Virus record (IMG/VR): IMGVR_UViG_3300032241_000345
Coordinates: 1 to 20,424 of that record
Strand: one strand, 5' to 3'
Length of the DNA: 20,424 bases
Source: a virus
Within the stretch, counting starts at the first letter, position 1. Every line of letters begins with the position of its first letter. The notes beneath the pieces were generated by a model, which saw only the letters and a program-made list of their open reading frames with translations, did not search any database and had not been told where the DNA came from. This document shows positions 2,306-14,977 of this stretch, one piece after another. A program made the translations under genes and the position numbers.

Positions 2306-2714
2306 TGTGTTGTTTCTCCCACATTTTCACCGCGTGATTGATGGACGTGTGATCTTTTTTAAGCCACCGCGCAATTTGAGATTGCGAATAATTTAAGGTC
2401 TTGTGTGCGCCCCAAATTACTTCCCTACGAATCATAACAATATTCTTTCTGCGGTCATTTGACATCAGAATTTTTGGATCAATGTTATGTTTTTCGGCTA
2501 CTTGACGGAGAAATTTAGCAAAATTGTTATTTGGCAATCCATCAATACGCCAAACTACTTCCGGCTCTTGTACGGGTTCTGGCTCTTGCTTTGGCAGTGA
2601 TTTAACGGCTTGAATTGGCACTAATCCTGCGGGTTTACCTAAACCGCCCAGTCTTTGCCGCACTGCAATATAATGCGCCTTTAGTTCATTGTAACTCAAT
2701 GTGTCCGTGTTCAT
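2292..2714 (-). CDS. DnaA domain IV-like DNA-binding protein
   Basis: A 140-aa protein whose C-terminal half (about 75-135) looks like the DNA-binding domain IV of the bacterial initiator DnaA. The clearest sign is the DHTSINHAVKMW segment (121-132), which matches the DnaA signature DHTTVxHA, preceded by a helix-turn-helix (SQSQIARWL, 110-118). No AAA+ ATPase domain (Walker A/B) is present. Residues 30-55 are a Pro/Glu-rich linker and the first 20 residues could be a short helix. It lies between rusA (29-nt overlap) and the helicase (14-nt overlap), so a role in loading or guiding the replication machinery at the phage origin is a fair inference. A role as a transcription regulator or as a competitor for host DnaA boxes is also possible. 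Confidence 0.8.
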   Translation of the reverse strand: MNTDTLSYNELKAHYIAVRQRLGGLGKPAGLVPIQAVKSLPKQEPEPVQEPEVVWRIDGLPNNNFAKFLRQVAEKHNIDPKILMSNDRRKNIVMIRREVIWGAHKTLNYSQSQIARWLKKDHTSINHAVKMWEKQHNVGA

Positions 2715-3060
2715 TTGATTCGCCCATTGCTATTAGTGTTACGATCATTGGCGCGTTGCTTTGATTGGCCCACTCCGCAGCCAGCGCCACACACTGGGAG
2801 TCGTCTTCTACAATTCTAAGTTCCACCAATAGGTCTGAGGTGGCCTTTAAAAGGTTGTCTAGGTCTCGTCTTTTGTTTGAGCGTAATGCCCTTATGTGAA
2901 TGGCATATTCGCCGTCTATGGTCTTCCTTGTCTGTTGGCGCACCATCCAACCAGCTTCTTCTAACCAATCTTTGTACACTTTGGTGCGATACAGCCGCTT
3001 GCCAGAGATACGCCACAATGCGTTGACAGAAGGAGCCAGTGGAAGTTCAAGCGTTATCAT
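2686..3060 (-). CDS. rusA: RusA-family Holliday junction resolvase
   Basis: 124 aa, the usual size for RusA. RusA dimers bind four-way junctions and cut them symmetrically in a metal-dependent reaction. The catalytic aspartates are visible: D66 and D68 in RRDLDN, and D87 in VEDDSQ. The spacings (2 and 19 residues) match E. coli RusA D70, D72 and D91. The N-terminal LPLAPSVNALWR is the typical beta-strand/loop start of the family. The gene overlaps the XRE gene by 14 nt at its start and the DnaA-like gene by 29 nt at its end. It would resolve branched intermediates left by ERF-mediated annealing or replication before packaging. Confidence 0.95.
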   Translation of the reverse strand: MITLELPLAPSVNALWRISGKRLYRTKVYKDWLEEAGWMVRQQTRKTIDGEYAIHIRALRSNKRRDLDNLLKATSDLLVELRIVEDDSQCVALAAEWANQSNAPMIVTLIAMGESNEHGHIELQ

Positions 3061-3478: not shown

Positions 3479-3511
3479 TTTGCGTTGTATGCAAATTACG
3501 CTCAATGCAAA
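3479..3511. promoter_or_regulatory. Candidate operator: ATGCAAA direct repeats and TTTGC/GCAAA inverted repeat
   Basis: ATGCAAA occurs at 3489-3495 and again at 3505-3511, 16 bp apart. TTTGC at 3479-3483 forms an inverted repeat with GCAAA at 3491-3495 around a 7-bp spacer. The elements lie in the 62-bp region between the two divergent operons and overlap the candidate -10. The XRE protein is the natural candidate ligand; binding is an inference. Confidence 0.35.
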
Positions 3512-3521
3512 CAAACGTCAA
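3493..3521 (-). promoter_or_regulatory. Candidate sigma70-type promoter for the left operon
   Basis: On the minus strand TTGACG (3521-3516, 5/6 to the -35 consensus) is followed after exactly 17 bp by TAATTT (3498-3493, a weak -10, 3/6). Transcription would start about 3486, leaving a short leader ahead of the AAGGAAG site of the 77-aa gene. The poor -10 makes this only a candidate. Confidence 0.4.
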
Positions 3522-3530
3522 GGAGGTACT

Positions 3531-4049
3531 ATGGATAATCTAAATAAGATAAAATTAACCTTACCTGTAATAGAAACAGAAATTACTAATCTCTTGGCTG
3601 TGCTGTATGAGACTAATCCTGAACTTAAATTAGATGATGAATTTAAATCAGATATATTAGAGGGAAGTACCGATCTATTAGAAATAGTAGATAGATTATT
3701 ATATGATCTAATACTTACAGATAGTTATATAGAAGGTATTAAAATAACGCGGGCGCGAATAGAACTTCGTGAAAAGAAACTCAAGGGGCGTCAGGAAGTT
3801 ATCCGCAGAATTATTCGCAGGTTGTTGGAAGCCGCTGAAATGCGTAAAATTACGGTTTCTAACGGAACCGCATCGCTAACAGCGAAACCGCAAAGTGTGG
3901 AAATTATAGATGAGGGGTTGCTTCCTGAAAACTTCTTCCGTATCAAGAAAGAACCGAACAAGACGTTGATCGGTGAACGATTAAAGGCTGGCGAAGACGT
4001 TCCCGGCGCTCAACTATCCAACGGCGGTGAAACGCTAACAATCCGATAA
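3531..4049 (+). CDS. Siphovirus Gp157-like protein
   Basis: 172 aa from ATG 3531, which has a near-perfect AAGGAGG 6 nt upstream; a TTG further upstream at 3480 is not credible. The layout is that of the Gp157 family: a long charged helical N-terminal two thirds (about 15-105, probable coiled coil) and a C-terminal beta part with NGTASLTAKPQSVEIIDE then LPENFFRIKKEPNKTLIGERL and a G-rich end. Family members sit next to recombination genes in many phages; one was linked to phage resistance in Streptococcus thermophilus, but the molecular role is unknown. It is first in the rightward early operon, directly before ERF. The first 70 codons are very A+T-rich, the rest is not. Confidence 0.87.
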   Translation: MDNLNKIKLTLPVIETEITNLLAVLYETNPELKLDDEFKSDILEGSTDLLEIVDRLLYDLILTDSYIEGIKITRARIELREKKLKGRQEVIRRIIRRLLEAAEMRKITVSNGTASLTAKPQSVEIIDEGLLPENFFRIKKEPNKTLIGERLKAGEDVPGAQLSNGGETLTIR

Positions 4050-4058
4050 GGCAAACAA

Positions 4059-4793
4059 ATGAAACATATAATTCAAGCACTTAATGCCATTATGAAGGAC
4101 GTTTCATACGTCCAAAAATCTTCCGAAAACAAGTTCCACGGGTATAAGTACGCTTCTGAAGCATCCCTTTTGGAAAGCCTACGCCCAGCCATGATCCAAC
4201 ATGGTTTAATCCTGATTCCCAGTGTGGGAAACGTCAGCCCGATTGATCAATACGGCAATACGATGCTCACCGTGGAATACACTTTAGCCCACGTATCTGG
4301 CGAGATTTGGCCTGATAAAATTACTGCTGTTGGCTGCGGAAACGATAAGTCCAAATCAGGCAGCGTTGGCGACAAAGGCGTCTACAAGGCTTTAACAGGT
4401 GCTAATAAGTATTTGTTATTTAAACTCTTTCAGATTGAGACAGGTGATGATCCAGAAAAAGACGAAGGTGCGCCGCCAGTACAAGCCGTCCAAAATAACG
4501 CTGCTCCACCTAGCAATAAGAAGGTTTCAGAATCGTCTAAGTCCAAATCAAAAAGTGGACCTGAACCGATTGTCTATGCGGATAACTTTGTGCCTACAGG
4601 GGAGGACTTGGATAAATACGTCAATGTTTTCATTGGGGCATTGCCCTTTGCCACAACGGAAAAAGAAGTTCGTGAATTTTGGAAACAAGAAGCCAAAAAT
4701 AGGGCGCTTATGGCACTACAACCAAATGACGGGGAATATGTACTAATGGCAGAAGCCTGTGCATCCCGAATTGCAGATTTAAAGGATCAATGA
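4059..4793 (+). CDS. erf: ERF-family single-strand annealing protein
   Basis: 244 aa. The N-terminal 130 residues match the Essential Recombination Function family of P22: IIQALNAIMKDVSYVQKS, then NKFHGYKYASEASLLESLRP, then SVGDKGVYKALTGANKYLL. ERF proteins form rings that anneal complementary single strands during phage recombination and genome circularisation. A charged Ser/Lys/Pro-rich linker (about 135-172) joins a small helical C-terminal part (about 175-244). AAGG lies upstream of the ATG, only 9 nt after the Gp157-like gene, and its stop overlaps the next start as ATGA. The pairing with Gp157, an SSB-like protein and RusA makes a complete recombination set. Confidence 0.93.
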   Translation: MKHIIQALNAIMKDVSYVQKSSENKFHGYKYASEASLLESLRPAMIQHGLILIPSVGNVSPIDQYGNTMLTVEYTLAHVSGEIWPDKITAVGCGNDKSKSGSVGDKGVYKALTGANKYLLFKLFQIETGDDPEKDEGAPPVQAVQNNAAPPSNKKVSESSKSKSKSGPEPIVYADNFVPTGEDLDKYVNVFIGALPFATTEKEVREFWKQEAKNRALMALQPNDGEYVLMAEACASRIADLKDQ

Positions 4794-5032
4794 AAATGGC
4801 TAGTTACGAAATGATGGGGATGATCTCCAAAAACAAGTATAAAAAAATGGATAAACAACCAGATATAACAGGAACAGCAACAATTGACGGTGTAGAATAT
4901 AGAATAGCTGGATGGCCTAAATCTGGTAAAGATGGGCCATATTATTCGCTAAAATTCTCGTTAAAAGATGAGGCTCCAAAATCAAATCAATCTAATAGTA
5001 TGGATGATTTATCGGATCACATCCCATTTTAA
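4790..5032 (+). CDS. Small DUF736-like protein with an SSB-type C-terminal tip
   Basis: 80 aa if the ATG at 4790 (ATGA overlap with erf) is used; the ATG at 4796 is better spaced from AAGGA (4781-4785) and would give 78 aa. Residues 15-62 resemble the DUF736-type fold: N-K-Y-K-K, PDITGTATIDGVEYRIAGW and GKDGPYYSLKFSLKD. The protein ends in DDLSDHIPF, very like the acidic DDDIPF tip that bacterial and phage SSB proteins use to recruit partner proteins. Taken with its position right after ERF, a small single-strand-DNA-binding or partner-recruiting protein is a reasonable inference. The fold assignment is from memory and the SSB role is unproven. Confidence 0.72.
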   Translation: MKMASYEMMGMISKNKYKKMDKQPDITGTATIDGVEYRIAGWPKSGKDGPYYSLKFSLKDEAPKSNQSNSMDDLSDHIPF

Positions 5033-7101: not shown

Positions 7102-9447
7102 TTAACGCTTTGCAGCATCCAATGCTTGAACAACTGCATCGTCTGGCAATGACAGCATATGCTCAGTAGTGTTCCTCATCATAACTTGGCGGCGCTTTAA
7201 ATCACGCAGTAGCTGTTCTGGCGTCATTACACTTGAACCAGCCCGGCCACCTGAAGCATGACCAATACGACCACCTGATGCTTTTGTTGTATCCGATGGT
7301 GCAAAAGGGTTCATGTCTGGGTTAGTAGCTACATAATTTGTTAAACGAGTTTCAAGATTACTAAAAATTTTACGATTTAATTCATCTTTATTTAGTGCGT
7401 CACTTAATTGTTTTTGAACTTGTGGATTGGGATCAGCAGCCATGCGTAACATGGCCGAAGCACGTTGATTGGCAAGACCTGAAACGGTTTTTGATCCTAG
7501 ATAAACGGCAGGTATGCCAATACCCAATGCAGCCGCAGTAGAGCCAAGAAAATACGGGTCAGTCATCCGCTCTAATAACTCAGGAGCATGGGTTATAGCA
7601 GTTTGAGCGCCAACAAATCCAGCACCAACACCTGCGCCAATTCCTGCTGACCCAAGACCTAATTTAGCCAAACTTGTAAGAATGTTGGGGTCAGATTTGT
7701 TTTTTACTGACAATCCAAGTGTACCAGTCAATTCACGGACACGAGCCATTTTGAACGCATCATTCACGCCTTCAAATGTATCATCACCTAAAGCGGCCCT
7801 TAAACGCTGCTCAGTTTGAGAATCCATGTTTTTAAAAACATTAGCAGCAGCATCTGGGTTTTCCTTTACAAAAGAAAGAAGACCAGTTTTGAAACTATTT
7901 TTTTCTGCTAGAGTATAACCGCCTGTTTTGGGTGGAGCAGTCAAATAATTCATTTGTTGCCCAATATCTTCAGCATTGCCTTTTGGCTTTGAAATCATAG
8001 TGAAGAAATCGGACCCAGCATCAAAAGCATTATCTGCTTTAATGTAGCGTTGAGCGGTGCTTGTGGCTTTATCGTAAAGAGGGAACTGTTGTTTGAGAAC
8101 ATCCGTAAATTGATGCATCATTGCACCCGTAGATGCTGCCGTATCAGCTTCTTTTGGATCAGATTTTTGACCACGCCATACACTGTTAAGGCCGCGCTTT
8201 ACATAGTCCCAATATTCAAGGTCTGGTGGCTGTTGTGCGCCAATTTGACCTGTTGGACTACGTAAAACATACAACCCTGTTTGTGGGTCTTTTGAAAAAG
8301 GACTTGGAGTAAGGTCGCCATCTTTGATCCGCTCATTATTAGCAAAATCAATAGCGGCTTGACCTTCTTTTGTATTGATTACCGTATTAAAATAAGGATT
8401 CCAAACGGCATCTGCGCCATTAGAATTAAATGCGGCATTATAAGCAGGAGACGATGCACTGCGATATGCTTTATCCGCAGCACGACGTTCTTCAAAAATA
8501 TTAATTGGTTTGCCAGCCGCATCATCAATTTGTTCACCAATAATTCTTGGATTATCGGCAATTCTTTTATTAATAACACTATTTAATGCTAATGCATTAG
8601 GATCGTTTTCAAGACGCTGTTCTGCACTTTGAATAAGTGGTTTTGCGCCTTGCACATCAGCCAAAGAAACATTTTTGTCGCCCCGATTTAAGGCGTCTAA
8701 ATATTCTTCTACAGACAATTGACGTTGAGATGGAACGACAGATGGTTGCGTTGAAGCACCTTCAACAATTTTTTGAGCCATAACTGATTCAGGATCAAAA
8801 AGACCATATATTTTACTGCCAAGATTCTTTACAGCCTTTACGCCGCCAGTAATAGCAGACGCTACCGGAGTTGCTGCCGCACCTGCACCAAAACTCGTTC
8901 CCAGACGTTTTGCCGTTTCTTCTGGCGTTTCACCCGGAAGTGCCTCCGACGAAGCAGAAGACATCAACCCACTTTCGGTCATTCGCCCCAAATATGGCGT
9001 TACATTTTTGACCAATGCAGGAGCATTTTCCGTCAATGCAGCCGCGCCACGTTCAAGCCCAATTTCAGGCAACAATACAGATGTTGCCCCCGGAATACCT
9101 GACATAAATGAATATGTCTTAGGAGCCGCCGCATATTTGGCATTTTCTATTGCAGCACGTTCAGCCTGAATATCTGTATATCGTTCCGTGAGCGATTTGC
9201 CTTGGCCTGATCCTGCTACTGCCCTAGCAAGGTCAAATGCTTTGTTGTAGGCAGGGCCAACCATTGGTATTTGCCCAAATTGAAAAGGTTGGTAAGCACC
9301 AAGTTGTTCAATTGGGCTATATGAAGCCACTGTTTTTTTAGCAGCAGGCATTTTTGCTTGAACCTGCGCTTCAAAATTAGAAGAAGCAGTAGGTTCCGCA
9401 ATATTTACAGCATCATCAGGTTCTAAAGTTGGGACATTACTGGCCAT
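7102..9447 (-). CDS. Large putative internal virion / DNA-ejection protein (781 aa)
   Basis: Last gene of the late operon, starting at the TAATG overlap with the 1128-aa gene's stop and with AAGGGG upstream. It is not a recognised enzyme. Residues 1-580 are mostly helical and Ala-rich, with FEERRAADKAYRSASSPAY (318-336) and EYWDYVKRGLNSVW (411-424), patterns I recall from large phage internal proteins. A glycine-zipper stretch, LGSAGIGAGVGAGFVGAQ (598-615), and a second apolar Gly/Ala segment (633-650) could insert into a membrane. The C-terminus has GGRIGHASGGR (725-735) and then a helical tail. Size, position after the tail genes and membrane-active segments fit an ejection protein that helps DNA cross the cell envelope; this is inferred. 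Confidence 0.75.
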   Translation of the reverse strand: MASNVPTLEPDDAVNIAEPTASSNFEAQVQAKMPAAKKTVASYSPIEQLGAYQPFQFGQIPMVGPAYNKAFDLARAVAGSGQGKSLTERYTDIQAERAAIENAKYAAAPKTYSFMSGIPGATSVLLPEIGLERGAAALTENAPALVKNVTPYLGRMTESGLMSSASSEALPGETPEETAKRLGTSFGAGAAATPVASAITGGVKAVKNLGSKIYGLFDPESVMAQKIVEGASTQPSVVPSQRQLSVEEYLDALNRGDKNVSLADVQGAKPLIQSAEQRLENDPNALALNSVINKRIADNPRIIGEQIDDAAGKPINIFEERRAADKAYRSASSPAYNAAFNSNGADAVWNPYFNTVINTKEGQAAIDFANNERIKDGDLTPSPFSKDPQTGLYVLRSPTGQIGAQQPPDLEYWDYVKRGLNSVWRGQKSDPKEADTAASTGAMMHQFTDVLKQQFPLYDKATSTAQRYIKADNAFDAGSDFFTMISKPKGNAEDIGQQMNYLTAPPKTGGYTLAEKNSFKTGLLSFVKENPDAAANVFKNMDSQTEQRLRAALGDDTFEGVNDAFKMARVRELTGTLGLSVKNKSDPNILTSLAKLGLGSAGIGAGVGAGFVGAQTAITHAPELLERMTDPYFLGSTAAALGIGIPAVYLGSKTVSGLANQRASAMLRMAADPNPQVQKQLSDALNKDELNRKIFSNLETRLTNYVATNPDMNPFAPSDTTKASGGRIGHASGGRAGSSVMTPEQLLRDLKRRQVMMRNTTEHMLSLPDDAVVQALDAAKR

Positions 9448-12400
9448 TATTGAACCCCTTGTTGAGCCTGATACTTTTTACGCTCCTGATCAGCGTCTAG
9501 CCAATTTACTTTGCCAGATGCATCACGTTCCCAAAACTGTTTTCTTTGGCCGCTATAATTAATATCACGGCCTTTCATCCAAGGTTCCAATGACGGCCCA
9601 GAAGAAGTTGTATCGGTTTCTGTACGTTTATACGGCAAGTTTTTGATATCAGCAGGAGACATACCTGCAAAATAATCAATTTGGTCAACTGCCTTTTGAT
9701 CATAAACTTTTTGACTATGATTAGGATCGCCCGTCCAATCAGCAATAAATTGCGACTGAGTTTTTCTTTGTGCTGGATTTGGATTGTTAATATTGGCTAT
9801 CCAATCCCTTGCCATATCTTCTTGACGCAGTTGATTGCTACGATCTTGCGTAATTACTTGATATTTTGCAGCAGCAGCCTTTGCTGGTTCCGCAACCGAC
9901 ATAAGACCTTCTTTTAATTGCATATTTGTCGTTCTGCCAGCCGCATTTGCCGCAACAGCTTTAAATGCATTGACAATGGCATCTTTGGCTGCGGTATCTT
10001 CAAGACCTTGAAATCCTGCATCATCAACATCAACACCAAATCTTTTTAATACATTATCTAATGCCGGAGTTCCTTTAATAATACCGATAGCGTCTGCTTT
10101 AAATCCGGCTGTACGATTCATATCTATTTTTTGATATGCATTAATAAGACCTTCTTGGACTTGTTGCACAGGAGGAAGTTCTTCTAAGAACTTAGTTTGT
10201 TCATTGGTATAATTGTGAGTGGTATCCGCCTGTTTTGCAGACATATCTTGAATATATTTATCGTAAGCAGCTTTTTGTGCATTATAATCAAGAATTGACT
10301 GTGGAATGCCCATTTCACCATTTATTAATTTGGTTTGCATTTCACCTTTATCAATTTTTTCAGCAGTTGATTGATAAGTGTCAGCTAACTTATCAGCAGC
10401 ATCTGCTGCCGCTGCATTTTTTTGCATACGGAAATTGGCCGCAATTTTACGTTGAACTTCAGCCTTATCTAACCAAACATTTGGTAGTCCTTCTGGATGG
10501 ACATCTTTATATTTGTTAATTGTGCTAGGCGCTTGCGATGCATCGGTTATAGCGGCTTGTGCCACTTTAACTGGGGCGGGCGCATTGGTCATATCGCCTT
10601 CATCAGCGCCAAGAACATCTGAACTTACTAACGATGGTGCTGTAAAAGTATCTGAAGAATTTTGATCTCCAGCTACTCCACCCAAAGCGTGTCCTTGCCT
10701 TGGAACAGCACCAGTTTGTGAAACTACTAGTGAATTTATGAAGGCTTCCGGCATACCCGATTCTTTATAAATTCCATATAACCGATCAGCATATTGAGAA
10801 GGAGTTAATTTTTCACCTTTTGGACCTAAAAATACAGTCTGTCCAACAGTGGGAGAAGCTGTGTCAGTATCTGTTGTTTGGGTAAATAATTTTTCACCCG
10901 CATTAGCCAAAGCAGTAGCGGCTTGAATTTTGGCAATACCAAGTTTGCCATATTCTATTGGAACGCCAGCTTCTTCAACTGCAACCCGACGACCAGTGAG
11001 ACCTTGTTCAGCCAGTGCTTTCTGGGTTTCATAATCCAATTGGCGCTGCTTGGCATAAGTATTCATGCCAATAAGACCACCTTGACCGATGGCCTGACCA
11101 ATAAATGGAGATGGGCTTGCAGCCATACCAAAACCAGCAGCCACAAGAGCCATTCTTGCATCATCAGATAATGGTTTGCCGCTATTAAATAAATTGCCAG
11201 CCAATCCCGGCTGATCGTGAGTGCTAAATAAACCGCCAACACCCTTGGATATGGATGAACCTAAATCGCCAAGAAAACCCTGATCAGCGGGAACCGTATT
11301 ATCTTGAGGAGGCGTGTCACCATCTGCATGATGGCTGCGCGGGACTAACCCGCCATGTGCATAGCCGCCAGATGCAGAAAAAGTTGCTTGATCTGGTGTC
11401 CAATTTGAATATTTGGAGGCAACATCTTGGTATGCTGCCAACATATCGGCGCTGCTTGGATTTGGAATGGTTGTAGGACCAAATTTATTCCATACAGCTT
11501 TACCAAATCCAGAAATACCGGATGTATCAAATGTAGGCTCTTGATATGGTTGTGCATGGGGAATTGGCACACCGCCGCCAGAGCCGCTAATAGCAATGTG
11601 AGGAATATATGATCCAAGCGTAATTTTGGCTAATGTTGCCATTTCTTGCGTTAGTGGATCATCGGCATAGGGTGTTGAACCAAATTGATATTGGCTGCCA
11701 CCTATGCCGCCGTAAGCATATGGTTGGCGCTCCATACTTGCAGGAACCAATCCACCCATAGATGAGCCACCCGCAGCAAAATGGCCTTTATCAGCCGCTG
11801 CACTAGTAGCATCATCATAGTTAACCATCCGCAAGCCGCCTTGTGTCTTATGGACAGCATCAGGATGGCGTTTTTCAACTTCTTGTGCGCTAAGGCCAAT
11901 ATTTGTCTTAGGATCGCCTTTATAATTGAACTTATAGATGTTTTGACCATCAAAAGTTTTACCGATTGGCTCCATATTATCTTTGGTGCGCTCATCGGAC
12001 ATATTTAAAAGAGCAGTTCCAAGACCTAAAAATGAATTTAAGCTACTAGGACCGGGAGATGTTGTGGTACTTACGCCACCCTGACCAGCACCAAGGCCGG
12101 AAGCCATGTTCGCCAAGCTGCCAAGCGTCTGCCAAGGATAAGCCTGTTGTTGTGCAAATTGCTGATATTGAGCCGCGTCTTGAGCCTGCTGTACAGCATA
12201 TGGTACAGCACCTGCCGTCATAAGACCTTGAGCGCCAGCCATACCCATGTTTTGAACATTTGTACCTAAATTGGCATATTGATTAGCCATATTTCCTTGG
12301 TTTTGCAGCCCAGCCATATAATTTTGGGCGGCATTTTGATAACCTTGGTTTTCCATGCCGCTAATTGTCTGGCCTAATGCAAGGTTTTGCTGACCCATAA

Positions 12401-12833
12401 GAGCCGCTTGAGCAATATTGCCACGGTCGCCGCCAAATGCGCCCTGTGAAATAGCGTTACCCAACAATTGCTGCTGTTGCTGCTGATTGACGTTTTGCAT
12501 TTGGGCCGTTGTAGCGCCGACCGCATTCTGCAAATAAGGGTTCATATATCCCTGAACGCCTTGCTGATAACCTTGTGGGCTATAACCTTTATAGACATCT
12601 TGGGTCATTTGACCCGCTTGCTGATAATAAGGTTGCGCCGCCGTAGAATATTGATTTGCCTGAGCGAGTCCGGCTTGCTGGGTGGCATTCATGCCCGGAA
12701 CTAATTCACCAGTGTAGGCTTGATACGGCTGTTGCTGAAGAGCCTTACCCTGTTCAGTAATGTACTTGTACATATCCTGAACCATCTGCGGAGGAGCAGA
12801 TGTTGATGTCGTAGTTGCCGTTTGACCACCCAT
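9447..12833 (-). CDS. Large virion protein with internal S74-type (tail-fibre chaperone) domain (1128 aa)
   Basis: Residues 1-240 are Gln/Ala/Gly/Tyr-rich with a Q-run and a GAFGGDRGNIAQAAL segment, a pattern I recall from phage internal and tail-associated proteins. Residues 278-345 look like the intramolecular chaperone/peptidase S74 domain: SDERTK (S279, K284), GQNIYKFNYKG, NIGLSAQEVEKRHPDAV. In that family the Ser-Lys pair self-cleaves just before the Ser after helping the protein fold. Gly-Gly motifs follow at 354-361, 375-379 and 489-496 (ASGGYAHGGLVPR region). The C-terminal half (about 550-1128) is mostly helical. AAGAGG precedes the start at 12833, 15 nt after the GNAT gene. Likely a structural or ejection protein; the domain order is unusual. 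Confidence 0.8.
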   Translation of the reverse strand: MGGQTATTTSTSAPPQMVQDMYKYITEQGKALQQQPYQAYTGELVPGMNATQQAGLAQANQYSTAAQPYYQQAGQMTQDVYKGYSPQGYQQGVQGYMNPYLQNAVGATTAQMQNVNQQQQQQLLGNAISQGAFGGDRGNIAQAALMGQQNLALGQTISGMENQGYQNAAQNYMAGLQNQGNMANQYANLGTNVQNMGMAGAQGLMTAGAVPYAVQQAQDAAQYQQFAQQQAYPWQTLGSLANMASGLGAGQGGVSTTTSPGPSSLNSFLGLGTALLNMSDERTKDNMEPIGKTFDGQNIYKFNYKGDPKTNIGLSAQEVEKRHPDAVHKTQGGLRMVNYDDATSAAADKGHFAAGGSSMGGLVPASMERQPYAYGGIGGSQYQFGSTPYADDPLTQEMATLAKITLGSYIPHIAISGSGGGVPIPHAQPYQEPTFDTSGISGFGKAVWNKFGPTTIPNPSSADMLAAYQDVASKYSNWTPDQATFSASGGYAHGGLVPRSHHADGDTPPQDNTVPADQGFLGDLGSSISKGVGGLFSTHDQPGLAGNLFNSGKPLSDDARMALVAAGFGMAASPSPFIGQAIGQGGLIGMNTYAKQRQLDYETQKALAEQGLTGRRVAVEEAGVPIEYGKLGIAKIQAATALANAGEKLFTQTTDTDTASPTVGQTVFLGPKGEKLTPSQYADRLYGIYKESGMPEAFINSLVVSQTGAVPRQGHALGGVAGDQNSSDTFTAPSLVSSDVLGADEGDMTNAPAPVKVAQAAITDASQAPSTINKYKDVHPEGLPNVWLDKAEVQRKIAANFRMQKNAAAADAADKLADTYQSTAEKIDKGEMQTKLINGEMGIPQSILDYNAQKAAYDKYIQDMSAKQADTTHNYTNEQTKFLEELPPVQQVQEGLINAYQKIDMNRTAGFKADAIGIIKGTPALDNVLKRFGVDVDDAGFQGLEDTAAKDAIVNAFKAVAANAAGRTTNMQLKEGLMSVAEPAKAAAAKYQVITQDRSNQLRQEDMARDWIANINNPNPAQRKTQSQFIADWTGDPNHSQKVYDQKAVDQIDYFAGMSPADIKNLPYKRTETDTTSSGPSLEPWMKGRDINYSGQRKQFWERDASGKVNWLDADQERKKYQAQQGVQ

Positions 12834-14451: not shown

Positions 14452-14488
14452 ACTTGACCCCGTTCAAAAATAATTGTATGTCATGTGC

Positions 14489-14977
14489 ATGAGAGAAGTT
14501 CCGATAAATGTTTTGCACGAAAAATTGTTTTATGAACCACAAACGGGCCATTTGATTTGGAATCATACCACGCAATGGACTAAAAAAGGACAAATTGCGG
14601 GAACAAATTGCCTTGGATATATCAAAATAAGTATTAACAAAATTATCATGCCCGCACACAGAATTGTTTGGGCGATGAAGCATAACCAATGGCCGTTTGG
14701 CGAAATTGACCATATTAATGGTAACCGCGCTGACAACAGAATTGAAAACTTGCGTGAGGTTACACATCAACAAAACTGCATGAACAGAACAAAAGCACAA
14801 AATAATAAATCTGGATACAAAGGAATATCTTGGCATAATTCTGCTCAGAAATGGCAAGCCCATCTTTCCGTTGGCGGCAAAAGCATTTATTTGGGTCTTT
14901 TTGATAATCCTGAAAAAGCCCATGATGCTTATGAAAAGGCCGCACAAATGGCGTATGGAATATTTGCCCGTCATTAG
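14489..14977 (+). mobile_element. Free-standing HNH-AP2 homing endonuclease gene, antisense in the late operon
   Basis: 162 aa from ATG 14489 (ATG 14483 is an alternative; no clear Shine-Dalgarno before either). The HNH core is A-H57-RIVWAMKHNQWP, I-D74-H75-INGNRADNRIENLREV and THQQN, all characteristic. Residues 106-160 form an AP2 DNA-binding domain: NKSGYKGISWHNSAQKWQAH, then FDNPEKAHDAYEKAA. Such enzymes cut a homing site in related phages lacking the gene and spread by repair. It is the only plus-strand gene between 7102 and 20424 and its stop overlaps the 882-aa gene's stop by 4 nt. TTGACC (14454-14459) with a poor -10 at 14477-14482 is a weak candidate promoter. Confidence 0.92.

Follow-up and report, generated by a model that had tools for sequence, protein, structure and literature searches.

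The single-stranded DNA-binding proteins (SSBs) known from bacteria and from double-stranded DNA phages are typically OB-folds. In phages, SSBs of the SSB-HK620 or 80alpha Ssb type are cognate to a single-strand annealing protein whose gene adjoins their own. In phage HK620, Sak4 alone anneals poorly and is stimulated by the neighbouring SSB-HK620, whose last six residues are required to bring Sak4 onto the coated single-stranded DNA (ssDNA) (PMC5928155). In Staphylococcus aureus phages, sak or sak4 adjoins the cognate ssb, and the pair acts as a unit, both members being needed for replication (PMC5499656). The locus analysed here has the same kind of arrangement: in a viral DNA stretch of 20,424 nucleotides (hereafter the window), which has no near match among phage isolates, an ERF annealing gene is followed, with an overlap, by the gene for a protein of 78-80 residues ending in DDLSDHIPF (Table 1). 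A preliminary description of this DNA had proposed that the small protein may be a minimal SSB, or an SSB mimic, with a DUF736-like core. Its observations are confirmed here and its interpretation is partly supported, in the sense that the protein belongs to a real, widespread and already labelled family with an unusual predicted core and a presumed affinity for ssDNA.

Table 1. Features at and around the small SSB-like gene (positions of the window)
Feature	Position	Strand	Basis
RusA-like Holliday junction resolvase, divergent operon	2686..3060	-	PF05866 E=9e-12
Gp157 / Mu Gam-like protein, upstream of ERF	3480..4049	+	PF05565 E=1.9e-20; PHROG 253 E=5.7e-21
ERF single-strand annealing protein, coupled upstream gene	4059..4793	+	PF04404 E=5.8e-21; PHROG 155 E=4e-32
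AAAGGA, likely Shine-Dalgarno	4781..4786	+	sequence; within the 3' end of ERF
ATGA overlap, ORF start on the ERF stop codon (TGA), putative translational coupling	4790..4793	+	sequence
Small SSB-like protein gene	4790..5032	+	ORF; PHROG 7364 and 18154 matches; dN/dS 0.20
Core domain, residues 8-58, predicted four-stranded beta-meander	4811..4963	+	AlphaFold2, pLDDT about 90
Linker, residues 59-71, low-confidence, probably disordered	4964..5002	+	pLDDT <50 at 65-70; length variable among relatives
SSB-type acidic tip DDLSDHIPF, residues 72-80	5003..5029	+	sequence; tip conservation

The reading frame, its ending and its coupling to ERF are as they had been described. Translation from ATG-4790, which shares four bases with the ERF stop, gives 80 residues, and from the in-frame ATG-4796 it gives 78. 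The latter (MASYEMM...) appears the likelier start, because its spacing from AAAGGA is 9 nt (3 nt for ATG-4790) and because it resembles relatives that begin MA(E/Q)YDN; whichever of the two is used, the arrangement of the reading frames indicates that the small gene is coupled to ERF. The same -4 overlap recurs at five other loci (L001, L003, L106, L107 and L124). Comparison with one 83%-identical relative points to purifying selection, with a dN/dS of 0.13 in the core that is lower still than that of the whole gene, and HIPF is unchanged despite two synonymous changes. The charge of the window protein is split between a basic core (pI 9.2) and an acidic tail (pI 4.4).

Elsewhere in the window, a small minus-strand protein (2292-2714) beside RusA and a helicase has the C-terminal DNA-binding domain of DnaA (PF08299, 2e-11), with the replication-initiator helix-turn-helix, and is too short for the ATPase. 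Judging by eye, an HNH and AP2-like homing endonuclease frame (14474-14977, plus strand) lies amid minus-strand structural genes, and a 1128-aa virion protein (9447-12833, minus strand) has an S74-type chaperone-like segment (DERTKDNMEPIG...GLSAQEVEKRHPDAV) within the first third of the chain, not at its C-terminus.

The small protein matches PHROG 7364 (E=3e-12 over residues 6-65) and PHROG 18154 (E=2.8e-9 over residues 6-67), both of which carry the label 'single strand DNA binding protein', and has no match in NCBIfam or, up to E=1, in Pfam. The SSB name is not new, being already in use for this family in PHROGs and in several GenBank records. It seems to stem from genome annotation and to be based on the tail, not on the core: the GenBank note of VpV262 ORF24 reads 'similar to single strand DNA binding protein C-terminus', and a similarity also underlies the name given to phiVC8 ORF31. 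No biochemical or ssDNA-binding assay of the PHROG 7364/18154 family was found in the literature searched. The identification made from this window therefore holds as regards the tip, which relatives keep, and repeats a name that databases had apparently drawn from that same tail. Core and tip of VpV262 ORF24, phiVC8 ORF31 and the VP2 member align with the window protein along the whole of its length, and the VpV262 product ends in a kindred DFDDDIPF; unlike the window protein, the phiVC8 and VP2 proteins have two core copies in one chain.

Relatives of the small protein were gathered from viral contigs, phage genomes and bacterial genomes, and their endings were counted as PF with, optionally, one residue after it. 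With the cores clustered at 90% identity, 33 of 40 clusters have such an ending, and at 50% identity 13 of 15 do, versus 7 of the 1,225 other ORFs of at least 100 aa at the same loci (Fisher p 2e-51 and 3e-24, respectively, residual relatedness being ignored). When loci were chosen via the neighbouring ERF and not via the small gene, the tip was present in all 64 complete relatives (64/64). Both the cluster counts and this ERF-anchored set reject a chance origin of the tip, and the expectation of the preliminary description that relatives would keep it is borne out. The final six residues of the 128 distinct members that end in PF follow the pattern D, D/E/S, D, V/I/L/M/A, P, F, and the stretch after the core ranges among relatives from about 13 to 96 residues, so the terminus is retained even though the linker drifts.

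There are exceptions to this pattern. One clade (L008-L017, e.g., L009:3001-3219 and L012:2980-3198) has lost the PF tip and has acidic ends (EDDL or EDGL), another ends in ..DDLDF or ..DDFF, and the phiVC8 member has 14 residues beyond IPF (MDTYHRQSKLGHCV), whereas its near twin in VP2 stops at IPF. The loss of PF in L008-L017 and the post-tip residues of phiVC8 imply that the tip is not indispensable. In the tip-less clade, a search of three records (G006-G008) detected no ERF, and the upstream ORF is short or not close in the inspected loci. A separate observation concerns canonical OB-fold SSBs, which in several viral contigs (L155, L173, L202, L206, L209 and L218 around 4001-4110; L051 and L146 at 4001-4513) and in Vibrio phage ST2-1pr (L335, 2498-3049) bear a conserved in-frame extension of ~15 residues after DDDIPF (RDTFARGARTAYACS type), making the normally free SSB tip internal; many end in C-x, and MDTYHRQSKLGHCV resembles them.

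Some tails are close to those of bacterial SSBs. The VP2 member and those of contigs L192 and L220 end in EPPMDFDDDIPF, which is also the 12-residue C-terminus of E. coli SSB; in Paramagnetospirillum the tail is PADMDDEIPF in the host SSB and PADLDDEIPF in the prophage member, and in Mesorhizobium the corresponding tails are RDLDDEIPF (host SSB) and ADLDNDEVPF (family member). This likeness favours a tail that, at least in some phages, would dock on the partners of the host SSB, and it is also compatible with docking on ERF.

The association with annealing proteins, anticipated from the window, holds across diverse phages. The gene directly upstream was identified as Erf in 16 of 32 diverse loci, as Sak in six, as another annealing protein in one and as exonuclease/RecE in five, which puts an annealing protein upstream in about 23/32, and the gap between the two genes is mostly -4 to +10 nt. 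A reverse search from one ERF type found the family adjoining ERF in 77/77 loci, these ERFs being mutually related, and ERF is present in 22 of the 40 records searched whole. The pairing also occurs in the isolates C72C1 (Sak), ctfne034 (erf) and Mae-JY35 (erf). Other members adjoin DNA polymerase or helicase genes, including those of phages with Z-DNA enzymes, and in some phages the family gene has no annealing protein nearby. A search with PF00436 of 39 member records, among them nine named phage genomes, found no canonical SSB (the 40th, G066, was left out, as its protein is not a family member but a canonical SSB whose tail is similar). This fits a replacement of the canonical protein, a weak argument given that phages may seldom carry canonical SSBs in the first place: one SSB query matched 1,597 of 50,697 records.

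As for the core, a classical SSB domain finds no support in the sequence. No Pfam match appears up to E=1, the PF00436 profile detects nothing in the window record, and the core profile compared with a canonical SSB set gives an hhalign probability of 0.2%, as expected from the preliminary description, which had called the core unlike a classical SSB. The similarity to DUF736 that it had also proposed is detectable but remote as far as profiles can tell. Against eight plasmid DUF736 proteins, the core profile reaches an hhalign probability of about 81-85% and a score of 33.0, whereas shuffling the columns 200 times never gave more than 23.2 and reversing the profile gave 11.7; three relatives match DUF736 (PF05284) in the same register with 12.6-14.8 bits, below the gathering cut-off of 22.1, and neither the window protein, which has no match, nor any relative exceeds the Pfam cut-off. 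Genuine DUF736 proteins, found with a typical DUF736 sequence as bait, were used for this comparison because the 'DUF736' match of a Caballeronia plasmid protein itself fell below the Pfam cut-off. Proteins of ~160 aa on plasmids of Caballeronia, Paraburkholderia and Burkholderia (L135, L136 and L137) weakly match the phage family, and two of them weakly match DUF736 too, being possible links between both. A related-locus search with the Burkholderia phage Bm1 protein found no loci.

AlphaFold2, run with 36 sequences, predicts strands at residues 8-14, 26-32, 35-46 and 49-58 (pLDDT about 90), followed by a low-confidence tail. A sequence search against solved structures yielded chance matches only, and the comparison of the single-domain model with them (Foldseek/VIA) gave a best Z of 4.4 and no significant match. 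No OB-fold emerged from this check: the weak matches are PUR/PC4-type ssDNA-binding sheets and eight-stranded barrels, all below significance. Those of the single-domain model (Borrelia Pur-alpha, Z 4.2/3.3; PC4 and MoSub1, about 3; SpoVG, 2.9) would be suggestive of ssDNA-binding sheets, and since their scores lie below the noise level stated for the tool, they are left out as evidence of function; OB-fold SSBs do not figure in that list, an absence that excludes nothing. Among predicted viral proteins, the model retrieves phage relatives, including the 'single stranded DNA-binding protein' of Vibrio phage JSF9, and a phage protein annotated as DUF736. The tandem cores of the VP2 protein are modelled as eight strands, and this model comes closest to eight-stranded barrels, avidin-like and designed ones (Z 6-7.5, the level of a common arrangement and not significant alone). 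Together, the eight-strand tandem model and its barrel-like neighbours are read as a hint that single-core members may dimerise into an eight-stranded barrel.

The reading given most weight, with a probability of roughly two in three, is that of a minimal non-OB SSB that would coat ssDNA and, by means of its tip, recruit the annealing protein and/or the partners of the host SSB. The small protein would probably be translated from the ERF message, directly after ERF; its basic, aromatic-bearing meander would join a second copy, fused to it in VP2-like phages, to form a barrel able to coat the single-stranded DNA of the phage in recombination-dependent replication, and the flexible acidic IPF tail would draw the annealing protein, the host proteins that dock on SSB, or both onto the coated strand. 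By analogy with HK620 and the staphylococcal phages, the coated phage ssDNA could be passed to ERF through the tip. The analysis shows the gene, its overlap with ERF, the conserved tip, the neighbourhood and the predicted core; ssDNA binding, dimerisation and partner recruitment are inferred. The tight coupling to annealing proteins, the tails like that of bacterial SSB and a very small core without a recognised ssDNA-binding fold could also be explained by an adaptor or recombination mediator whose core binds ERF/Sak (or double-stranded DNA) instead of coating ssDNA, and whose tail docks host SSB-interacting proteins (RecO, ExoI, PriA, RecQ) at the annealing site. We consider this unlikely: members found beside DNA polymerase or helicase genes, far from any annealing protein, fit an SSB role in replication better, and the tandem duplication of a basic core suits DNA coating.

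A host-SSB-like tail, as seen in some phages and prophages, is also what a decoy would display, one that competes for the partners of the host SSB and so disarms repair nucleases or replication with no need to bind DNA. This is more improbable still, given that the genes lie in recombination/replication operons and not among early anti-host genes, and that the core is conserved, with tip-less relatives, which implies a core function of its own. Least credible, with very little probability left to it, is a classical OB-fold SSB that, through truncation or divergence, has only part of the barrel left; the gene occupies the place of the canonical ssb beside sak/sak4 in staphylococcal phages (PMC5499656) and the tail is SSB-like, yet the profile comparison with canonical SSBs gives a probability of 0.2%, the remote similarity is consistently to DUF736 instead and a four-strand meander is predicted. 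Taking the minimal SSB up again, a fuller picture can be offered tentatively, at slightly below even odds: a widespread phage family of minimal SSBs built on a four-stranded non-OB meander, which dimerisation or fusion would turn into an eight-stranded barrel. The family would be a distant relative of DUF736 and carry a bacterial SSB tail that was either acquired or converged on.

If true, the protein, an SSB of only 78-80 residues whose core is of another kind, would rank with the smallest known and be a compact natural carrier of the tip for studying or improving annealase recombineering, in which a single-strand annealing protein is used with its cognate SSB. It would also give a functional lead for DUF736, a family of unknown function on conjugative plasmids, whose proteins would become candidate DNA-binding proteins of those plasmids. 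In any case, an annotation based on the tail only is replaced by a testable description of a family.

Set beside the systems known, the small protein has in common with DUF736 (PF05284, proteins of conjugative plasmids) the core motif PD...W...G..Y.S, whereas the eight plasmid proteins examined lack the acidic PF tip and have extra sequence beyond the common region, so the suggestion that DUF736-like proteins could be renamed stands for the phage family only. The T7 gp2.5 and Enc34 ORF6 (DUF2815) SSBs are likewise phage-encoded with an acidic tail, but they are OB-fold proteins of about 190 aa with a capping helix (PMC5686142), and their type has no sequence match to the small protein in Pfam or among the sequences of solved structures. 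With the bacterial SSB (PF00436) it shares an acidic tail that is borne on a flexible linker and terminates in (I/V/L)PF, while it is about half the size and its core, a predicted four-strand meander, has no sequence similarity. Finally, SSB-HK620, a protein of 21.3 kDa and apparently a tetramer, is distantly homologous to bacterial SSB, and its partner is Sak4 and not ERF, but it is, like the small protein, the product of an SSB-type gene beside that of an annealing protein, with a tip of the same kind (NDYPPF) that is required for recruitment (PMC5928155).
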